Shown piece by piece: positions 9,807 to 59,482 of a stretch of 64,000 nucleotides of DNA. Below the pieces are notes generated by a model. The model saw nothing but the letters and a program-made list of their open reading frames with translations. It did not search any database and was not told the origin of the DNA. Within the stretch, counting starts at the first letter, position 1, and each line of letters opens with the position of its first letter. Source of the stretch: Nitrospirota bacterium (lineage in GTDB: Bacteria; Nitrospirota; Thermodesulfovibrionia; Thermodesulfovibrionales; UBA9159); contig JAJYIF010000008.1 of the NCBI GenBank assembly GCA_021790195.1, positions 62,001-126,000 of the forward strand. The letters are read 5' to 3'. The position numbers and the translations under genes were made by a program.

Positions 9807-12269
9807 TCATTTTTCGACATGCACCGGCGGCTGCTCAGGAGAAAGCTTTCTGATGCGAATCAGATCTAGGACATAATCAGTTTCTGTGCCATATTCGAGC
9901 GCCTTGACAGCAAGGTTGGACATGGCAACAGGATCCCACCACCAAAGGAGTTGGAAATATCCATGCTTTTTCCCCAGAGACAAGGCTTCCAGCAAAAGTT
10001 CTATGCCCAACTTCTCTTGTCCACTGTCCAAGGCGAATTGCGCCCGTGCGAGCCTGCATTGGAACTCCAGGACAGAACTCTTTGAAAGAATGGACAGCTC
10101 GAAAGCCCGTTCCAGATACTCTTCAGCTCTGTTGTCGCTGAGCGCGTGAAGAATCTGAGCCGTCGCATACAGGAGGACTATCCTTGCGAATATGTAGCCC
10201 GTTTTTTCGTCAAACTTCAACCCAATCTCGGCGCTATCTAATGCTCCAGAGAAGTTCCCTCTCAAGAATTCGTACAAACAATTCACTATATGATATGCGA
10301 CATATATTTCCTTACGTGACGGACTAAGCGTTGAGCTCATCTCTTCAAGATACCGCTTTGCCTTTGCCATCTCACCTTTGATCAAGAAGCTGTAGATCCC
10401 GAGGGCAAAAAACATGTGGTCCCAGAAGTGCAGACCTTTTGCTGCGCCGAATTCCAGGCCTTCGGAAATTCTCTTTGCCGACTCTTCCGCGGTTGACGCA
10501 TACCATAAGTGCCTTCCAGCAAGCATAACGCGTGACAAAAGCTGTTCCGAATTCGATGTCTGAGGTGAAGATGTCAATTGCTTGACCTGTTCGAGCAAGG
10601 CATCACATTGACGAAAATCGCCTATCCAGGAATAATATATATTTGCGACCATCATTGCGAACAGACTGCTATTGGCAACATTGGTTTGTATCGCGAGAGA
10701 AACCGAGCGCTCAATAAATTCCGCTGTCCGCGGATAATCCGGTCTGCGAATGAGAAGCGCAAGGCTGATCGCATTTGCGGCCCTTATCTGGACCTCCGGA
10801 GTATTTGTCGAAAGAACCTCCTCGACCCTTTCAAAATAGACAGATATCAGATCGTCGAGGGGATGAAAGTCGTTCCACTCAGCCATGAAGGCATCGATAA
10901 GGGAGGACCATGACAAGACCATGCCTACATTATCATTTGTGACTGTGAAAAGGTTAAACGCCTGTTCGAGTTCGATGCGTGCGCCGGCAAGGTCATATCC
11001 CATGTGGCATATGCCGGACCAGTAGAGCAGCCACTGTGAGTTCTTTATCAAGTCCCTTGGAAGGGCCGAAAGCCATTTCGTGATTGTCTGAGCGCGCCCC
11101 GCTGCGACAAGTGGACCTGCATAGTTCATCACAGCTCTCGTGATGGACTCCCAGTCCCGAGACTCGATGTAAAGGTCAACGGCGCTTTCAATAAAGCCAT
11201 TCTCCTCGATCATCGCTCCGGCCTGCTTCTTGAGAATCGCGAGCTCATCAGGTTCGAACCGTAGCTTTGCTTGAGACTGGAGGAATCTCCTGAAGAGGGG
11301 ATGAAACTGAAAAGTGATCTCATTACCGGGAAGCAATTCAATAAAATAGTGGCTTCTGCCCAGACCTGACAATATTATCCCCGCGTGATCAGAGCCGGAG
11401 AGCGTGGTAGCAATGGACTCAGTTATCACCGGCAACAAAGATGTTTTTAAAAGGACTATCTGTGTCTCGGGATCAGTTTGCTCGAATATCTCGGTCGAAA
11501 AATAGTCGAATATGGCAGATAAAGAGAGTTCGCTTATGCGTGACAAGTGATAAAGGCCCCGCCGGTCTCGCTTCACCGTCTCCATATAGAGCACGAGCCC
11601 GGCCGCCCATCCTTTTGTCACGTCATAGAGTTCTTGTTCTTTGCCCAGCGGAAATACGTCGCCAATTCGCTTGTGAATAAATTCTTCAGACTCGGTTTTG
11701 GTGAATCTGAGGTCGTTCCATCCGATAAGCAGCAATCTACTTCCTGCTATAAACGCGGACATTTGGGACACAGGATCAGACCTGCTTATCAAGAAGACCC
11801 TCAGCCCCTCCGGTAATACAGCAAGGCCGTTTGCGATTACGTCATGAAAGCCCTCTGCCCGCGCCTCGTGATAATTATCCAATACTAGGGCGCAGGGAGG
11901 CCTCAACCTGCTGAAGAGGTCTTCAAAAAAACGTCTTGTAAAAGCAGGCACACCGAGCATATACTCAGGTGTCAGAACAGGGAGCGGCTTCTTTTTTCTA
12001 GGTACCGCGTTTCGAGCCGCCTTACCCATATAATAGAAAAAAGTCGCAAGATCCGAATCTCTTGAATCCACCTGATACCACAGAGAAGGAATGTTTCTGG
12101 CGTCAAGATAACTGGCGATGAGGGTTGTTTTCCCTGCACCAGCAGGCCCATTTACCCAGACAACGGGACGGCTTATTTCCGCATCGAGCAGGCTAAATAG
12201 CCTTTCCCTCTGCAAGATATTCGACATGGCAGGCCGTGTTATCTTGGCTATTGGTGGACGCTTATTCAT
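9807..12269 (-). CDS. MalT-like STAND ATPase regulator, N-terminal part, ends at in-frame TGA
   Basis: About 820 residues from the ATG at 12269; the frame extends to 12353. I chose the later Met because the family starts just before a Lys-Ile-Thr-Arg-Pro motif. The Walker A motif Gly-Pro-Ala-Gly-Ala-Gly-Lys-Thr-Thr sits near residues 41-49 and a Walker B-like Ala-Leu-Val-Leu-Asp-Asn-Tyr follows. Next come a winged-helix segment and a long TPR-like helical region to the end. Proteins of this kind normally carry a C-terminal SARP domain. Here that domain follows in frame after a TGA. The target is unknown; the neighbouring secretion genes are candidates. Confidence 0.85.
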   Translation of the reverse strand: MNKRPPIAKITRPAMSNILQRERLFSLLDAEISRPVVWVNGPAGAGKTTLIASYLDARNIPSLWYQVDSRDSDLATFFYYMGKAARNAVPRKKKPLPVLTPEYMLGVPAFTRRFFEDLFSRLRPPCALVLDNYHEARAEGFHDVIANGLAVLPEGLRVFLISRSDPVSQMSAFIAGSRLLLIGWNDLRFTKTESEEFIHKRIGDVFPLGKEQELYDVTKGWAAGLVLYMETVKRDRRGLYHLSRISELSLSAIFDYFSTEIFEQTDPETQIVLLKTSLLPVITESIATTLSGSDHAGIILSGLGRSHYFIELLPGNEITFQFHPLFRRFLQSQAKLRFEPDELAILKKQAGAMIEENGFIESAVDLYIESRDWESITRAVMNYAGPLVAAGRAQTITKWLSALPRDLIKNSQWLLYWSGICHMGYDLAGARIELEQAFNLFTVTNDNVGMVLSWSSLIDAFMAEWNDFHPLDDLISVYFERVEEVLSTNTPEVQIRAANAISLALLIRRPDYPRTAEFIERSVSLAIQTNVANSSLFAMMVANIYYSWIGDFRQCDALLEQVKQLTSSPQTSNSEQLLSRVMLAGRHLWYASTAEESAKRISEGLEFGAAKGLHFWDHMFFALGIYSFLIKGEMAKAKRYLEEMSSTLSPSRKEIYVAYHIVNCLYEFLRGNFSGALDSAEIGLKFDEKTGYIFARIVLLYATAQILHALSDNRAEEYLERAFELSILSKSSVLEFQCRLARAQFALDSGQEKLGIELLLEALSLGKKHGYFQLLWWWDPVAMSNLAVKALEYGTETDYVLDLIRIRKLSPEQPPVHVEK

Positions 12270-53846: not shown

Positions 53847-54185
53847 CTATTCTATCTTGAGGAGTTTCTTCTCAAGTTCAGGCAGGTCCGCTTTGACTAC
53901 GTTCCAAACAATACCGTAATCCACTACGTCATAGGCATGGATTATTCGGTTTCTCATGCCGATAATCCTCCGCCACTCTATTTCCTTATGTCTATTCCTG
54001 AAAGAGACGGAGACCCGGGAGGCTGCCTCGCCTATTATCTCCAGATTCCTGACAACCGCGTCCCGCAGCATCTCATTAGCGGCGAAATCTTTTTCCTTTG
54101 TCCCTTTGCAAAAACGCTTTATCTTCCGAACAGCCTCTATGATGTCATCAACATAAACAAGATCGTCCTTCTTGCCCGTACTCAT
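53847..54185 (-). CDS. hepT: HepT-like toxin (HEPN/DUF86)
   Basis: 112 residues with the Rx4HxY motif (Arg78-Asn-Arg-Ile-Ile-His83-Ala-Tyr85) of HepT HEPN RNases. In known systems HepT is silenced when its MntA partner AMPylates the Tyr of this motif. It overlaps the mntA-like gene by four bases and sits beside the right direct repeat. Assignment to a type VII toxin-antitoxin pair is by gene order and motifs. Confidence 0.9.
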   Translation of the reverse strand: MSTGKKDDLVYVDDIIEAVRKIKRFCKGTKEKDFAANEMLRDAVVRNLEIIGEAASRVSVSFRNRHKEIEWRRIIGMRNRIIHAYDVVDYGIVWNVVKADLPELEKKLLKIE

Positions 54186-54463
54186 AATATAGCCGTCAAG
54201 TCCTTGTCCACGTGGGCCTTCAGGCGCGGCTTAAGAGAGCGATAAATCACAACGTCCACTTTCTTGCCAAGCTCGTCTTCCAGCTCCTGCTCCACCCCCA
54301 CAAGATCGAGAAGCGAAAACTTGGCATCAGGCGGCTCTATAGCGACGTCTATATCGTGGTAGCGCCTGGCTCTGCGGGCGAAACTCCCAAAAATGTACGC
54401 TTCGGTTATGCCATAACTCTTAAGCGTGCTTCTTATGGTTTCAACTATTTCCTCGTGTTTCAT
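54182..54463 (-). CDS. mntA: MntA-like minimal nucleotidyltransferase antitoxin
   Basis: 93 residues from the ATG at 54463 with AAGGG upstream; the frame extends to 54535 without a site. The nucleotidyltransferase motif Gly-Ser-Phe-Ala-Arg-Arg followed by Asp37-Ile-Asp39 is intact. It AMPylates and neutralises HepT in characterised pairs. The expected Gly-Ser-Phe...Asp-x-Asp spacing is kept. Confidence 0.88.
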   Translation of the reverse strand: MKHEEIVETIRSTLKSYGITEAYIFGSFARRARRYHDIDVAIEPPDAKFSLLDLVGVEQELEDELGKKVDVVIYRSLKPRLKAHVDKDLTAIL

Positions 54464-54643
54464 ATTTCCCTTAAAACTCTTGTCTTGTTCGTCGGTTTCT
54501 CGTTGGTTTTTGATTAAGGATACCATTAGGCCCAAGTGTTGTCAAAAAAGCGGCTGTTCTTCAGGATGAATATATGCTGAGCGGCGAGGTAAGAAAACAT
54601 GCCGCAATACATACCCACATAGAGAAATCCGAACCACATGCGC

Positions 54644-55081
54644 TTATTCGCTCTTCACCTCGTAAGTGTACGTGATCTTTGTCACGCCACGGATAGTAGC
54701 AGCTACGGAGCAGTACTTGTTCTGAGAAAGCTCAATCGCCTTTTCCGCTTTCTGTGAAGAGATGTCCTTTCCGGAAATAATGTAGTGCAGATGGATGTCT
54801 GTAAATTGGTAAGGCGGCTCAGGAGCCTGTCTGGCATCTGCAGTGATATATAGTTCGGTCAGTTCCTGCCGCTGCTTCTTCAGGATTTCCACCACGTCGT
54901 AGGCCGAACAGGAGCACAGGCTTATGACGAGCAGGTCCGAGGGCTTGAGGGCCTTCCACTCCTGCCACTTTTCGTCTCCTTCCCTGCGCCAGGGTCCGGC
55001 CACTACCGTATGACCGAAACTGTCACGTCCGACGAACATCCTGCTGTCCCCGCCGATCCACTTCAGAGCGATTTGTCCCAT
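54644..55081 (-). CDS. OsmC-family protein
   Basis: 145 residues. The redox cysteines are Cys56 or Cys58 (Leu-Cys-Ser-Cys-Ser-Ala) and Cys124 (Lys-Tyr-Cys-Ser-Val). OsmC/Ohr proteins reduce organic peroxides using thiols; some family members differ. Its promoter region faces the S51-like gene cluster, only about 90 bases away. This is a suggestive link to thiol metabolism, but it could be chance. Confidence 0.88.
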
Positions 55082-55174
55082 ATGATCACCCTGCCTTTCT
55101 TTTTTTATAGCATAACACGGCTTCGGGGATGTTTGGCTCTTGACAGCCGAGGGAAAAAACGCTCAAATTTAGAT

Positions 55175-56419
55175 ATGCAGGAATTGTCCGGGAAAGGCTT
55201 GATCGTACTCATGGGCTCCGGTGAGCTGACCGCCACAATGGTCGGGGTCCACAGGGAAGTCCTGGCGCGTTTCGGATACTCCCCGAGGGCTTTCTTCCTC
55301 GACACCCCTGCCGGGTTTCAGTTGAACGTTGATCAGCTCTCCCAAAGGGCTGTGGAGTATTTCCGCATCAACGTCGGCTGTCCGATGGCAATCATCTCCT
55401 TCAAATCAAGGGATATGGCCTCCGTGGAGAAGGGGGAGGCATACCGCATGTTGAAAGAGGCGGACTATGTGCTCGTCGGCCCTGGCAGTCCGACCTATGC
55501 CGTAAGGCAGTGGGAGGGGACTCCTCTTCCCGATATACTCAAACAGAGGATCGAAAACGGGGCCTGTCTTGTGGCTGCAAGCGCGGCAGCGCTCACGATC
55601 GGACGTTTTACTCTGCCGGTATACGAGATATACAAGGTCGGTCAGGAGCCGCACTGGGTCGAGGGTCTTAACATCCTCGGCCATTTCGGGCTGAATGCCG
55701 TCGTGATCCCCCATTGGAACAATGCTGAGGGGGGGACCCACGACACCCGTTTCTGTTTCATGGGAGAGGAGCGCTTCAGGGTACTGGAATCGATGCTGCC
55801 TGAGGACGTGAGCATCCTCGGACTCGACGAGCACACGGCCTGCATTATAGACTTCGACAAGGAGGAGGTTTCGATAAAGGGGATCGGCACAGTAACGCTG
55901 CGGCGCCGTGCATTCGAAAGGACATTTTTCAGGGACGAACGCTTCCCGCTTAAGATGTTTACGGATGGAGCGGTCATGGGAGCAGAAGCGCCAGCGAAAA
56001 AGGCCGCAGTTCCGGCACCCTCTCCCCGGGAGGCAGGCTTCTGGAGGTCGGTGCATGATCTCGAAGCCGCGTTCCACGAAGGCCTTGAAGATGACCCAAG
56101 GGATTCGGCGAACGCTCTTTTGGACCTCGATAAGCTGATCTGGAGGGCTCAGGAGGCAAAAGAAGACCCGGAGTTCATATCCCAGGCGAGGGACCTCCTG
56201 CGGGAATTCATAGTTTTGCTCGGGATGCGTCTGGCCTCTGCTCCAAGGAGCCGGCGCGATTGCCTCGCGCCTGTTGTCGAGGAGCTGCTTGCATTGAGGG
56301 CGCTGTTCAGGGAAAATAACAAATGGCCCGAAGCCGACGCCATCCGTGACCGGCTCAGGAGTGCAGGTATTGAAGTCGATGACACTGCCGAAGGATATCG
56401 CTGGCATCTGGCTTCCTGA
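55175..56419 (+). CDS. Peptidase-S51/GATase1-like protein fused to CysRS C-terminal region
   Basis: 414 residues from the ATG at 55175; the frame extends to 55010 but overlaps the OsmC gene. Residues 5-270 resemble peptidase E/cyanophycinase: Met-Gly-Ser-Gly-Glu-Leu, Gly-Pro-Gly-Ser-Pro-Thr-Tyr, and a nucleophile-like Ser136 in Ala-Ala-Ser-Ala-Ala-Ala. Residues 292-414 match the C-terminal helical part of cysteinyl-tRNA synthetase (Leu-Glu-Asp-Asp-Pro; Glu-Ala-Asp-Ala-Ile-Arg-Asp-Arg-Leu; Gly-Tyr-Arg-Trp), without its catalytic domain. The substrate is unknown. It is first of a four-gene cluster with glycan-type enzymes. Confidence 0.85.
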   Translation: MQELSGKGLIVLMGSGELTATMVGVHREVLARFGYSPRAFFLDTPAGFQLNVDQLSQRAVEYFRINVGCPMAIISFKSRDMASVEKGEAYRMLKEADYVLVGPGSPTYAVRQWEGTPLPDILKQRIENGACLVAASAAALTIGRFTLPVYEIYKVGQEPHWVEGLNILGHFGLNAVVIPHWNNAEGGTHDTRFCFMGEERFRVLESMLPEDVSILGLDEHTACIIDFDKEEVSIKGIGTVTLRRRAFERTFFRDERFPLKMFTDGAVMGAEAPAKKAAVPAPSPREAGFWRSVHDLEAAFHEGLEDDPRDSANALLDLDKLIWRAQEAKEDPEFISQARDLLREFIVLLGMRLASAPRSRRDCLAPVVEELLALRALFRENNKWPEADAIRDRLRSAGIEVDDTAEGYRWHLAS

Positions 56420-56455
56420 GTCGAAGGACGTTCCGGGTGAGATAAGAGAGAATTT

Positions 56456-57484
56456 ATGAACGACATTGAAATAAGAAACGCGAGTGAAGCAAGCGCCGCA
56501 ACCGGCGGTACGGTCGCTGTAGACACGATGCACAATCTGGAGCTCTATTGGAATGGTCCTTCCGGGAGCGCGTTGAAATGGGACTGCATATTCATGCTCC
56601 CGCCATGGCTCGGCGCCTGGTGGTCACACTTCGGACGCGGACCCGGGACCCTGGTACACGTAGTGAGACACAACGACTCGGTGCTTGGCCTGGCGCCGCT
56701 CGTTCTCCAGGGGGAGACGGCGAGGCTCGTAGGCGACAGTGAGCTGATCGACTATAGTGACCTTGTCGTAGCGCCTTCGAGAGAAATGGAATTTTTCCCG
56801 GTTCTTTTTGATGACCTCAGGAATAAGGGCATAAGACGTTTTGTGCTGGGCCGCGTGCGCTCGGATTCAACGGCGCTCTCTTTCCTCCGGGCATATTCGG
56901 GAGATCTCGGCTGCCGCCTGGTGTGCGATTCAGTGGATGTGTTCTATGAAATGGAACTGCCGGATACCTGGGGAGGATACCTAGACCTTCTGTCTGGAAA
57001 GGAGAGGCACGAAATCCGCCGGAAGCTCAGACGCCTGGAGAGCTCCGGCCGCATCGGGCTCAGGACCGTCGTTGACAAAGGGGATGTCCCGGAGGCAATG
57101 GACGCATTCATATCCCTTTTCAGGTCAAACCGGGAGGAAAAGGCCAGGTTCATGACTGGCGATATGGAATCATTCTTCAGGTCTTTGGCTGGCAGGATGG
57201 CCGGGGCAGGCCTCCTGAGGCTTTTCTTCCTCGATCTGGACGACAGGCCTGTCGCAGCGGCGATGTGTTTTGACCATCTCTCGACTTTTTATCTTTACAA
57301 CAACGGCTATGACCGGAGCTTCGACCGTCTGAGCGTGGGACTCCTGTGCAAGGTCTTCAGCATAAAGGAAAGCATAAGACTGAACAGGAAAAGATACAAT
57401 TTCCTTCGGGGCAGTGAGACATACAAGGGCCGCCTGGGGGGACGCCCCGTCAGTCTGCTTCATTGTGAGGTCGCCCTGGAATGA
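56456..57484 (+). CDS. CelD/BcsL-family (FemAB-like) acyltransferase
   Basis: 342 residues of the GNAT-related CelD/BcsL family. It has Trp-Leu-Gly-Ala-Trp-Trp near the start, Arg-His-Glu-Ile-Arg-Arg-Lys-Leu-Arg-Arg mid-protein, Ala-Ala-Ala-Met-Cys-Phe-Asp in the acetyl-CoA core, Tyr-Asn-Asn-Gly-Tyr-Asp and Phe-Leu-Arg-Gly. Family members acylate sugars or peptides. It overlaps the glycosyltransferase gene by four bases, so the two are translationally coupled. Its acyl donor and acceptor are unknown. Confidence 0.86.
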   Translation: MNDIEIRNASEASAATGGTVAVDTMHNLELYWNGPSGSALKWDCIFMLPPWLGAWWSHFGRGPGTLVHVVRHNDSVLGLAPLVLQGETARLVGDSELIDYSDLVVAPSREMEFFPVLFDDLRNKGIRRFVLGRVRSDSTALSFLRAYSGDLGCRLVCDSVDVFYEMELPDTWGGYLDLLSGKERHEIRRKLRRLESSGRIGLRTVVDKGDVPEAMDAFISLFRSNREEKARFMTGDMESFFRSLAGRMAGAGLLRLFFLDLDDRPVAAAMCFDHLSTFYLYNNGYDRSFDRLSVGLLCKVFSIKESIRLNRKRYNFLRGSETYKGRLGGRPVSLLHCEVALE

Positions 57485-58764
57485 CTCCGGCTTCGACTGT
57501 TGTTTCTGAATTTGGTGCGAAGAGAGTTGAAGCGGTCTCCGATGTCCGGCCGCTGAGGATCGCCATGCTCAGCATCCATTCGAGCCCTCTAGGTGAACTC
57601 GGGACAGAGGATACTGGAGGCATGAGTGTCTACATCCGCGAACTCTCCCGGGAACTCGGGAGGGCGGGTCATTGTATCGACATATATACCTGCGCCGGCA
57701 ACCGGGGCCGTGGCAGTAAAGTTCTCTTATCCGAAAACGTGCGACTTATCCATCTGGGCATCGGACATAGCGGACCCGTCACCAAAAACACGCTCTTCAG
57801 ACATCTGCCCGAGGTATTTCGGGCGCTTGAGGCCCATATCACGAAAAGCAATGTCTGCTACGACCTTATTCACAGTCATTATTGGCTGTCGGGCGAGCTG
57901 GGAGGGCTTGCGCAAAACAGGTGGTATATGCCTCACGTGATCATGTTCCATACTACCGGCATCGCCAAGCGGGTGGCCTGCAGCCAAGAGAGAGAACCCG
58001 CCATGCGCCTGATTGCAGAAAAGCGACTGGCCCTGAAGAGCGACCGGGTCCTGGCTGCGACCGTCAGGGAGAGGGACCTACTAATGAAATACTACGGCGT
58101 GCCTGCGAAAAAAATCGGGATGGTGCCGTGCGGGGTCAATACAGGGCGTTTTTATCCCATATCGAGAGAGCTCGCCCGAAAGGAGCTCGGACTTCAGGAT
58201 ACTGGGTTCCTTGTCCTTTACGTAGGGAGGTTTGCGCCTGTCAAGGGACTCGCCAGGCTTATGTCGGCAGCCGCGCATCTCCGCTCTCACAAGGGTCTAA
58301 GACTCATGATCGTCGGAGGCGACGACAGGCAGACCCGCAGCCTGGCAGAACTTCGAAGAATTGCGCGCCGGTCCTCTGTCGAGGACATTGTGAGGTTTCA
58401 GGGCAGGGTCGAGCACGATCTCCTTCCCTTGTATTACAGTGCTGCGGACGTACTTGTCGTGCCTTCTTATTATGAAAGCTTCGGTCTTGTGGCTCTCGAA
58501 TCCCTTGCATGCGGGACACCGGTAATCGCCACTCGCGTAGGCGCTATGGACGTGCTGATCAGAGATGAAAAAACAGGACTTCTTGTCGATAAGCCGAGCC
58601 CGCGCTCGCTCGCTTCCTCGATCGAAAAGCTTATGATGACTTCATCGGACAGCCGCAGGCTGCGGGAGGAGATACGCTCCTCTGTCCTCGGTTATGGCTG
58701 GTCGAATATTGCAGCGGCCGTTGCGCGGGAATACGCTACCGTCCTTCGGCCTTACTCTTCATGA
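57481..58764 (+). CDS. MshA-like GT4 glycosyltransferase
   Basis: 427 residues. A 20-residue N-terminal extension precedes Leu-Ser-Ile-His-Ser-Ser-Pro-Leu-Gly and Thr-Gly-Gly-Met-Ser-Val-Tyr. His-Ser-His-Tyr-Trp-Leu-Ser-Gly, Gly-Val-Asn-Thr-Gly-Arg-Phe and the retaining-GT Glu-x7-Glu (Glu-Ser-Phe-Gly-Leu-Val-Ala-Leu-Glu) follow. The N-terminal motifs are closest, in my memory, to MshA, the UDP-GlcNAc:inositol-phosphate transferase of mycothiol synthesis. Related GT4 enzymes include BshA and sucrose-phosphate synthases, so the acceptor is uncertain. Confidence 0.9.
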   Translation: MTPASTVVSEFGAKRVEAVSDVRPLRIAMLSIHSSPLGELGTEDTGGMSVYIRELSRELGRAGHCIDIYTCAGNRGRGSKVLLSENVRLIHLGIGHSGPVTKNTLFRHLPEVFRALEAHITKSNVCYDLIHSHYWLSGELGGLAQNRWYMPHVIMFHTTGIAKRVACSQEREPAMRLIAEKRLALKSDRVLAATVRERDLLMKYYGVPAKKIGMVPCGVNTGRFYPISRELARKELGLQDTGFLVLYVGRFAPVKGLARLMSAAAHLRSHKGLRLMIVGGDDRQTRSLAELRRIARRSSVEDIVRFQGRVEHDLLPLYYSAADVLVVPSYYESFGLVALESLACGTPVIATRVGAMDVLIRDEKTGLLVDKPSPRSLASSIEKLMMTSSDSRRLREEIRSSVLGYGWSNIAAAVAREYATVLRPYSS

Positions 58765-58786
58765 AGAATGACAAAGGAGATAATCC

Positions 58787-59482
58787 ATGACGCCTTCTGC
58801 CGACATGCTCGTTGTTGCAGCGCATCCGGATGATGCGGAATTCGGTGTTGCAGGGACCGTGGCCCGATGGGTCAGGGAGGGCAAACAGGTGGTTTATGTT
58901 GTCTGCACAAGCGGAGAAAAAGGGACATCGGACAGGAAGATAAAGCCCGAGCTCCTCGCCCAAATGAGGGAGAAGGAGCAGGAGGCCGCCGCAAGGGTCC
59001 TCGGCGTGCGGGAGGTCGCATTCCTCAGACTCCCGGACCAGGGGCTGGAGGACACTGCCGAATTCCGAAAGATGGTCGTGCGCGCTATCCGGAAATACCG
59101 CCCCCGCACCGTCGTCACCTCGGACCCTTACCGCAGGTACATCTGGCACCGGGACCACAGAATCGCCGGACAAGTCACGCTCGATGCGGTCTACCCCTTT
59201 GCGCGTGACCACCTCGCCTATCCGGACCTCCTTGATGAAGGCCTGGAACCGCACAAGGTCGGAGAGATGCTCTTTTTCGGCTCGGACGACGTCAACTACC
59301 GCTCTGATATCACCTCAACCTTTGATCTGAAGATCGCGGCCCTTCGCTGCCACGAAAGTCAGATGAGGGAGCTGAAAGTGCCGGACCTGGAGAAATGGAT
59401 GCGGGAGTGGTCCTGTTCAATGGCCGAGGGCGCCGAATGCGAGCTTGCCGAGGCGTTCCACAGGATAGAGATCAAGAGATAA
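58787..59482 (+). CDS. PIG-L/LmbE-family N-deacetylase (MshB/BshB-like)
   Basis: 231 residues. The zinc site is His13-Pro-Asp15-Asp16 near the start plus His121-Arg-Asp-His124. These enzymes de-N-acetylate GlcNAc conjugates, for example GlcNAc-inositol in mycothiol and GlcNAc-malate in bacillithiol synthesis, or lipid-linked GlcNAc. It follows the MshA-like gene after 22 bases, the classical pairing of transferase and deacetylase. GGAG lies upstream of the ATG. Confidence 0.92.
   Translation: MTPSADMLVVAAHPDDAEFGVAGTVARWVREGKQVVYVVCTSGEKGTSDRKIKPELLAQMREKEQEAAARVLGVREVAFLRLPDQGLEDTAEFRKMVVRAIRKYRPRTVVTSDPYRRYIWHRDHRIAGQVTLDAVYPFARDHLAYPDLLDEGLEPHKVGEMLFFGSDDVNYRSDITSTFDLKIAALRCHESQMRELKVPDLEKWMREWSCSMAEGAECELAEAFHRIEIKR

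Follow-up and report, generated by a model that had tools for sequence, protein, structure and literature searches.

The DNA analysed here, called the window below, is a 64,000-nucleotide stretch from the genome of a Nitrospirota bacterium (assembly GCA_021790195.1, contig JAJYIF010000008.1). It contains a run of four genes in the order S51C, GNAT, GT4 and PIG-L (Table 1), which may encode the synthesis of a mycothiol-like thiol that receives its cysteine from a charged tRNA. The reading frames of GNAT and GT4 overlap by 4 bases. The longest frame of S51C begins at 55010 and overlaps the OsmC-family gene; the family alignment places the start near 55175. The first-pass annotation of this DNA had located the four-gene run and the OsmC gene correctly, and its family calls were borne out by Pfam and NCBIfam matches. 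It had also listed OsmC as a neighbour of the cluster. The divergent gene is there, but it adjoins S51C only in the window and in the closest relative (G225), and we therefore rejected it as a core part.

Table 1. Features of the cluster and its surroundings (positions refer to the window unless a locus is named)
Feature	Position	Strand	Basis or remark
HepT-like ribonuclease and MNT-type nucleotidyltransferase (overlapping genes)	53847-54185 and 54182-54535	minus	typical HepT/MNT toxin-antitoxin pair
OsmC-family protein	54644-55081	minus	PF02566, 71 bits; divergent from S51C; probably not a core part
S51C: Peptidase_S51 hydrolase domain plus C-terminal region of cysteinyl-tRNA synthetase (helical bundle plus anticodon-binding)	55175-56419	plus	PF03575, 35 bits; PF23493
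S51C, S51 domain (residues 1-250)	55175..55924	plus	alignment to 6nqc
S51C, synthetase-type tail (residues 284-414)	56024..56416	plus	alignment to E. coli cysteinyl-tRNA synthetase
GNAT (GNAT_6 / FemAB-like double-GNAT), candidate Cys-tRNA-dependent cysteinyl transferase	56456-57484	plus	PF13480, 100 bits
GT4, MshA-like, candidate inositol-phosphate N-acetylglucosaminyltransferase	57481-58764	plus	TIGR03449 MshA
PIG-L/LmbE deacetylase, candidate N-acetylglucosamine-inositol deacetylase	58787-59482	plus	PF02585, 118 bits
Cys-rich open reading frame, 137 aa	59487-59900	plus	repeated CxxC motifs; directly 3' of PIG-L
Short second S51 protein	L058:9247-9936, L065:9113-9802, L052:5834-6532, L045:9785-10498		directly upstream of S51C

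The most unusual member of the cluster is S51C, which joins a hydrolase domain to the C-terminal region of cysteinyl-tRNA synthetase (CysRS). Both parts score above the Pfam cut-offs, the first with PF03575 and the tail with PF23493 (CysS_C, 24.8 bits, cut-off 23). The synthetase model TIGR00435 (cysS) matches only residues 347-466 of the 469-residue longest frame, and a profile of 56 S51C relatives matches four solved CysRS chains (E<1e-6) in the tail region only. An AlphaFold model (pLDDT 88.7) gave Foldseek matches to the cyanophycinase/PepE group (6nqc, CphB, PepE) and to CysRS:tRNA-Cys (1u0b). Ser136, His180 and Glu219 of the S51 domain are invariant in all 56 sequences; therefore, S51C probably also works by acyl-enzyme chemistry, as an active hydrolase or transferase. 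The E. coli CysRS contacts G34 of tRNA-Cys with Arg423, Arg427, Trp432 and Asp436 (PMC12684709). These residues align to R375, R379, W384 and D388 of S51C, predicted tRNA-Cys contacts that are kept in 56, 54, 48 and 56 of the 56 sequences, respectively.

The first-pass annotation had proposed the tail-bearing protein as the counterpart of the cysteine ligase of mycothiol synthesis. The tail is present as described, but S51C has no CysRS class I catalytic domain. Since the tail is the tRNA-binding part only, a role of S51C as an adenylating ligase of the CysRS type is ruled out; the protein may present Cys-tRNA, hydrolyse it or transfer the cysteine itself. We found no description of an S51-CysRS fusion in the literature searched, which was mostly open-access, so that this absence is no proof. 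A tie of S51C or GNAT to a tRNA-Cys gene was rejected: none of 101 loci contains tRNA-Cys, and L053 alone has a CysRS close to the cluster. In some relatives, a short second S51 protein (cyanophycinase-like, about 230 aa, without the CysRS tail) is encoded directly upstream of S51C.

The GNAT protein was modelled as a double GNAT fold (pLDDT 93.6). Its best solved Foldseek matches are MprF (top), Sbb17/Sba18 and FemX, all of them aminoacyl-tRNA-dependent. Coenzyme A (CoA)-dependent tandem GNATs also match the model, ranked lower and mostly with smaller TM-scores, and the family lacks a conserved CoA P-loop motif. Orf11 of the BD-12 pathway, an enzyme of the same fold, offers a precedent: it transfers an amino acid, glycine, from its tRNA to an amino sugar (PMC12945691). 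Among 40 GNAT relatives, PF02388 matched weakly in 8. K324, which is Lys in 39 and Arg in 1 of these 40, may, by its position, correspond to the catalytic Lys305 of FemX. The CelD-like acyltransferase had been placed at the MshD step by the first-pass annotation. This assignment was not upheld: because the predicted structure resembles aminoacyl-tRNA-dependent transferases, GNAT is probably a cysteine-transfer enzyme rather than an MshD equivalent.

GT4 scores 307.5 bits with the MshA model TIGR03449, below the equivalog cut-off of 462.5, and 94 bits with the BshA model (cut-off 274); MshA is the sole curated match at E<=1e-60 for all 36 family members. The closest solved relative is MshA of C. 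glutamicum, with the cyanobacterial Tll1590, which we take to be a sucrose-phosphate synthase, as a close second. At three positions that differ between these two (Met/Gln, Lys/Arg and Thr/Ser, respectively), the GT4 family has the MshA residue in 36, 31 and 36 of 36 sequences. The inositol-phosphate acceptor site in the C. glutamicum structure presumably consists of K78, Y110, T134 and R154; in the predicted site of GT4 (alignment to 3c4q), the counterparts are K102, kept in 31/36, and Y134, T158 and R176, kept in 36/36. The best curated model for PIG-L is BshB1 (109 bits), its relatives comprise BshB, MshB and diacetylchitobiose deacetylase, and H13, D15, D16 and H121/D123/H124 are conserved. 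In relatives, the cluster is adjoined by a myo-inositol-1-phosphate synthase (best model mycothiol_INO1, 416 bits, cut-off 638) or, in another group, by an inositol monophosphatase. Redox genes also occur nearby, namely a fusion of a mycoredoxin-like domain with thioredoxin reductase, and gloB-like hydrolases. The synthase, the monophosphatase and the mycoredoxin-thioredoxin reductase neighbours thus indicate a glucosamine (GlcN)-inositol product. The genome of the window encodes its inositol-3-phosphate synthase on another contig (C31).

The product could also be a glycan or glycolipid, with GT4 and PIG-L making a GlcN-inositol or GlcN-phosphatidylinositol headgroup that GNAT would aminoacylate as MprF does phosphatidylglycerol. 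MprF is indeed the top structural match of GNAT, N-acetylglucosamine (GlcNAc)-phosphatidylinositol deacetylases belong to the PIG-L family, and Gfo/Idh dehydrogenases adjoin the cluster in many relatives. However, GT4 is closest to MshA, whose substrate is a soluble inositol phosphate, and a CDP-alcohol phosphotransferase motif occurs in no gene of the loci. The predicted specificity of the S51C tail for tRNA-Cys and the mycoredoxin-like, gloB-like and inositol monophosphatase neighbours also speak against such a product. We consider it improbable, and place it last among the alternatives.

A scan of GTDB genome contigs with S51C gave at least 151 related stretches, and the best 80 of the 151 were kept. 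Their titles name mainly Desulfobacterota/Deltaproteobacteria, with some Nitrospiraceae, Syntrophomonadaceae and other Bacillota. All four genes are present in 32 loci (window included), mostly from Desulfobacterota and Nitrospirota, and lie on one strand in 31 of them; wherever GNAT and GT4 both occur, they are adjacent (42/42 loci). As dozens of genomes show this same order of genes, the cluster is more than a chance arrangement, and the synteny on which the earlier proposal depended is strongly conserved. The pairwise distances of the four proteins, compared among cluster proteins only, correlate with r 0.69-0.87, which agrees with joint inheritance. In many loci S51C and GNAT are separated by a pair of Gfo/Idh/MocA dehydrogenases, of which one includes a ThuA-like part; the pair hints that these relatives may modify the inositol or the sugar further, and in the window it does not adjoin the cluster. 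Syntrophomonadaceae show two local variations (L118:6866-8749 and 11099-11905; L124): a fusion of acetyl-CoA hydrolase/transferase with a GNAT domain stands ahead of the GNAT gene, and GT4 and PIG-L are separated by a gene for an MscS channel.

GNAT and GT4 also follow S51C outside the cluster. We examined 52 S51C-bearing genomes, a sample that purposely takes in those without GNAT near S51C. GNAT was found in 44, once only as a fragment where the contig ends, and GT4 in 43; their presence was concordant in 47 of the 52 (41 both, 6 neither). Of the fetched cases without linkage to S51C, most still have GNAT and GT4 side by side, often with PIG-L. S51C occurs in exactly two of 296 genomes of the same phylum; the same two have a GNAT above 250 bits, the next best reaching 180 bits. 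Two loci (L015 and L029, from G296 and G301) carry S51C with an intact tail and two Gfo/Idh dehydrogenases, and GNAT and GT4 are nowhere in the assembly.

No bsh or msh ligase, whose discovery elsewhere in the genome would have told against the first-pass proposal, scored above its cut-off. Profile searches found no BshC in the genome of the window or in the 51 other S51C genomes, and we therefore rejected bacillithiol as the product; MshC (TIGR03447, cut-off 485 bits) was above its cut-off in 0 of 52. The only MshC-model match in the genome of the window is a CysRS fused to serine O-acetyltransferase (CysE-CysS, 707 aa; L006:973-3096, C18). Similar frames of about 710-720 aa occur in G225, G327, G328 and G333. 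A 758-aa frame (L142:3972-6248, G342:C95) combines a start that by eye is cysteine synthase-like with a CysRS-like region and lies beside an ordinary CysRS; frames of about 760-800 aa that resemble it in several genomes are perhaps CysK-CysS fusions. Short CysRS-like proteins (L136-L139) were considered as a hidden MshC and rejected, since every one scores higher as CysRS.

A full-length MshC-like protein was found in a single one of the 52 genomes, G299. It has 397 residues and no anticodon domain, is preceded by a desulfoferrodoxin gene, and scores 378.6 with the MshC model, below cut-off, against 372.8 with CysRS. This genome has S51C, both dehydrogenases, GT4 and PIG-L, and GNAT is found neither in its slot nor elsewhere in the assembly. 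The GNAT-bearing relatives G298, G321, G326 and G335 contain no ortholog of the MshC-like protein. G350, of the same class as G299, encodes an 81% identical protein, also below the MshC cut-off; the cluster was not found within the approximately 0.74 Mb read of its 3.9 Mb. These data, from one genome that is a metagenome assembly, suggest that GNAT was displaced by an MshC-like ligase in G299. The presence of such a protein where GNAT is missing therefore supports GNAT as the cysteine-transfer enzyme.

Gene order, protein families, site conservation, neighbours and the absence of known ligases are matters of observation. In our judgement the chances are about evenly balanced that the product of the cluster is an inositol-based thiol resembling mycothiol, with cysteine delivered from Cys-tRNA by GNAT and S51C binding tRNA-Cys; the conserved one-strand cluster and the tracking of S51C by GNAT and GT4 even where unlinked speak for it. 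An inositol phosphate would be supplied by the inositol-3-phosphate synthase encoded elsewhere in the genome, GT4 would add GlcNAc from UDP-GlcNAc, and a phosphatase would remove the phosphate. PIG-L would then deacetylate the product to GlcN-inositol, and the FemX-like double-GNAT would load the glucosamine nitrogen with cysteine taken from Cys-tRNA(Cys), while S51C would bind tRNA-Cys through its CysRS tail and present or police the charged tRNA. The product would likely be Cys-GlcN-inositol or a derivative.

Several points weigh against this pathway. Pfam classes GNAT under Acetyltransf_6 (PF13480), the FemAB-like match of the window protein (PF04339, 22.1 bits) stays below the cut-off of 27, and profile searches did not connect GNAT to the solved FemX at the sequence level. 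Neither GNAT nor GT4 is present in six of the S51C genomes; assembly gaps or a second role of S51C may explain this. Inositol-3-phosphate synthase was found in 46 of the 52 S51C genomes, a frequency counted in S51C-bearing genomes alone. The S51C of G299 retains its tRNA-Cys tail despite the missing GNAT and the MshC-like protein; therefore, S51C is not simply a helper of GNAT and does more than serve it. Finally, the substrates and the product, the need for tRNA and the part played by S51C are our inferences, and GNAT may use a donor other than Cys-tRNA.

The classification of GNAT under Acetyltransf_6 would also suit two other explanations. S51C itself could be the cysteine ligase, its serine taking cysteine from tail-bound Cys-tRNA(Cys) and passing it to GlcN-inositol by ping-pong transfer, with GNAT as an MshD-like N-acyltransferase. 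Cyclodipeptide synthases offer an analogy, as they use serine-based ping-pong chemistry with aminoacyl-tRNA, and S51C holds the invariant Ser-His-Glu triad and an intact tRNA-Cys-reading tail in a single protein, which G299 keeps without GNAT. However, those S51 enzymes for which relatives have been solved act as hydrolases, GNAT is nearer in fold to tRNA-dependent than to CoA-dependent enzymes and lacks conservation of a CoA P-loop motif, and the MshC-like protein is present where GNAT, not S51C, is missing. This role of S51C thus seems rather unlikely. Alternatively, a mycothiol-like thiol could be made without tRNA: GNAT would be an acyl-CoA-dependent acyltransferase, S51C a thiol-conjugate amidase or peptidase analogous to Mca, and an unrecognised cysteine ligase would be encoded elsewhere in the genome. 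The complete hydrolase triad and the lack of GNAT and GT4 in some S51C genomes agree with this, but one would not expect a tRNA-Cys-reading tail in a conjugate amidase, and GNAT accompanies S51C through the genomes even if unlinked; the missing P-loop motif and the MshC-like protein where GNAT is absent count here as well. We regard this as quite unlikely.

Two further features of the window lie beside the cluster (Table 1). The Cys-rich open reading frame has no Pfam or NCBIfam match and no counterpart among the fetched loci. On the other side, beyond OsmC, lies the HepT/MNT pair.

The tRNA-dependent pathway would have consequences beyond this locus. The first-pass annotation had proposed a low-molecular-weight thiol pathway, and this is still the best-supported reading given the conserved synteny and the lack of a known ligase, but the roles of GNAT, the S51C tail and OsmC had to be revised. 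To our knowledge, no thiol buffer has been assigned to many of the strictly anaerobic Desulfobacterota and Nitrospirota, and the cluster offers a concrete candidate for one. Possible, though somewhat more doubtful than the pathway itself, is the wider proposal that anaerobes of several phyla draw cysteine from the translation pool, with a captured CysRS anticodon domain reading Cys-tRNA(Cys), a transferase building a Cys-GlcN-inositol buffer, and an MshC-like ligase assuming the task in one lineage or more. If true, mycothiol-like chemistry would reach beyond Actinobacteria, and we know of no earlier low-molecular-weight thiol pathway with cysteine from a charged tRNA. We found no paper on such a pathway, or on msh-like genes in these phyla, in the mostly open-access literature, where absence is no proof. 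In any case, the cluster is the setting for an apparently undescribed fusion of a hydrolase with a CysRS tail, present in at least 151 genome stretches.

The overall plan is that of mycothiol biosynthesis (Ino1, MshA, phosphatase, MshB, MshC, MshD); the proposed cysteine source and the S51C protein are new. An MshA-like GT4 and a PIG-L deacetylase are common to both. Relatives further share a mycothiol-type Ino1 and an inositol monophosphatase, encoded within the cluster or next to it, and a mycoredoxin-like domain nearby. In contrast, no cluster member exceeds the curated MshA, MshB or MshC cut-offs, and the genome of the window has GNAT_6 and S51-CysRS-tail proteins instead of a CysRS-type ligase. 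A 2018 survey found complete mshA-D in Actinobacteria only (PMC6282198). The present cluster belongs to strict anaerobes outside this phylum. Bacillithiol synthesis (BshA, BshB, BshC) shares the succession of a GT4 and a PIG-L deacetylase, and PIG-L matches BshB1 best, but GT4 is far nearer to MshA than to BshA and BshC is missing from all 52 genomes. With the aminoacyl-tRNA-dependent GNATs (FemX, MprF, DhpH, Orf11/Sba18/Sbb17), GNAT has the double fold and an equal length in common; its sequence is too dissimilar for a curated match, and Cys-tRNA as donor and GlcN-inositol as acceptor are our proposal. S51C carries the CysRS C-terminal domain with conserved G34-reading residues, but fused to a Peptidase_S51 hydrolase in place of the CysRS catalytic domain. 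With cyanophycinase and peptidase E of family S51 it shares the fold and the Ser-His-Glu triad; the long CysRS-type tail and an invariant PHWNNAEGGTHDTRF region untypical of solved members set it apart.

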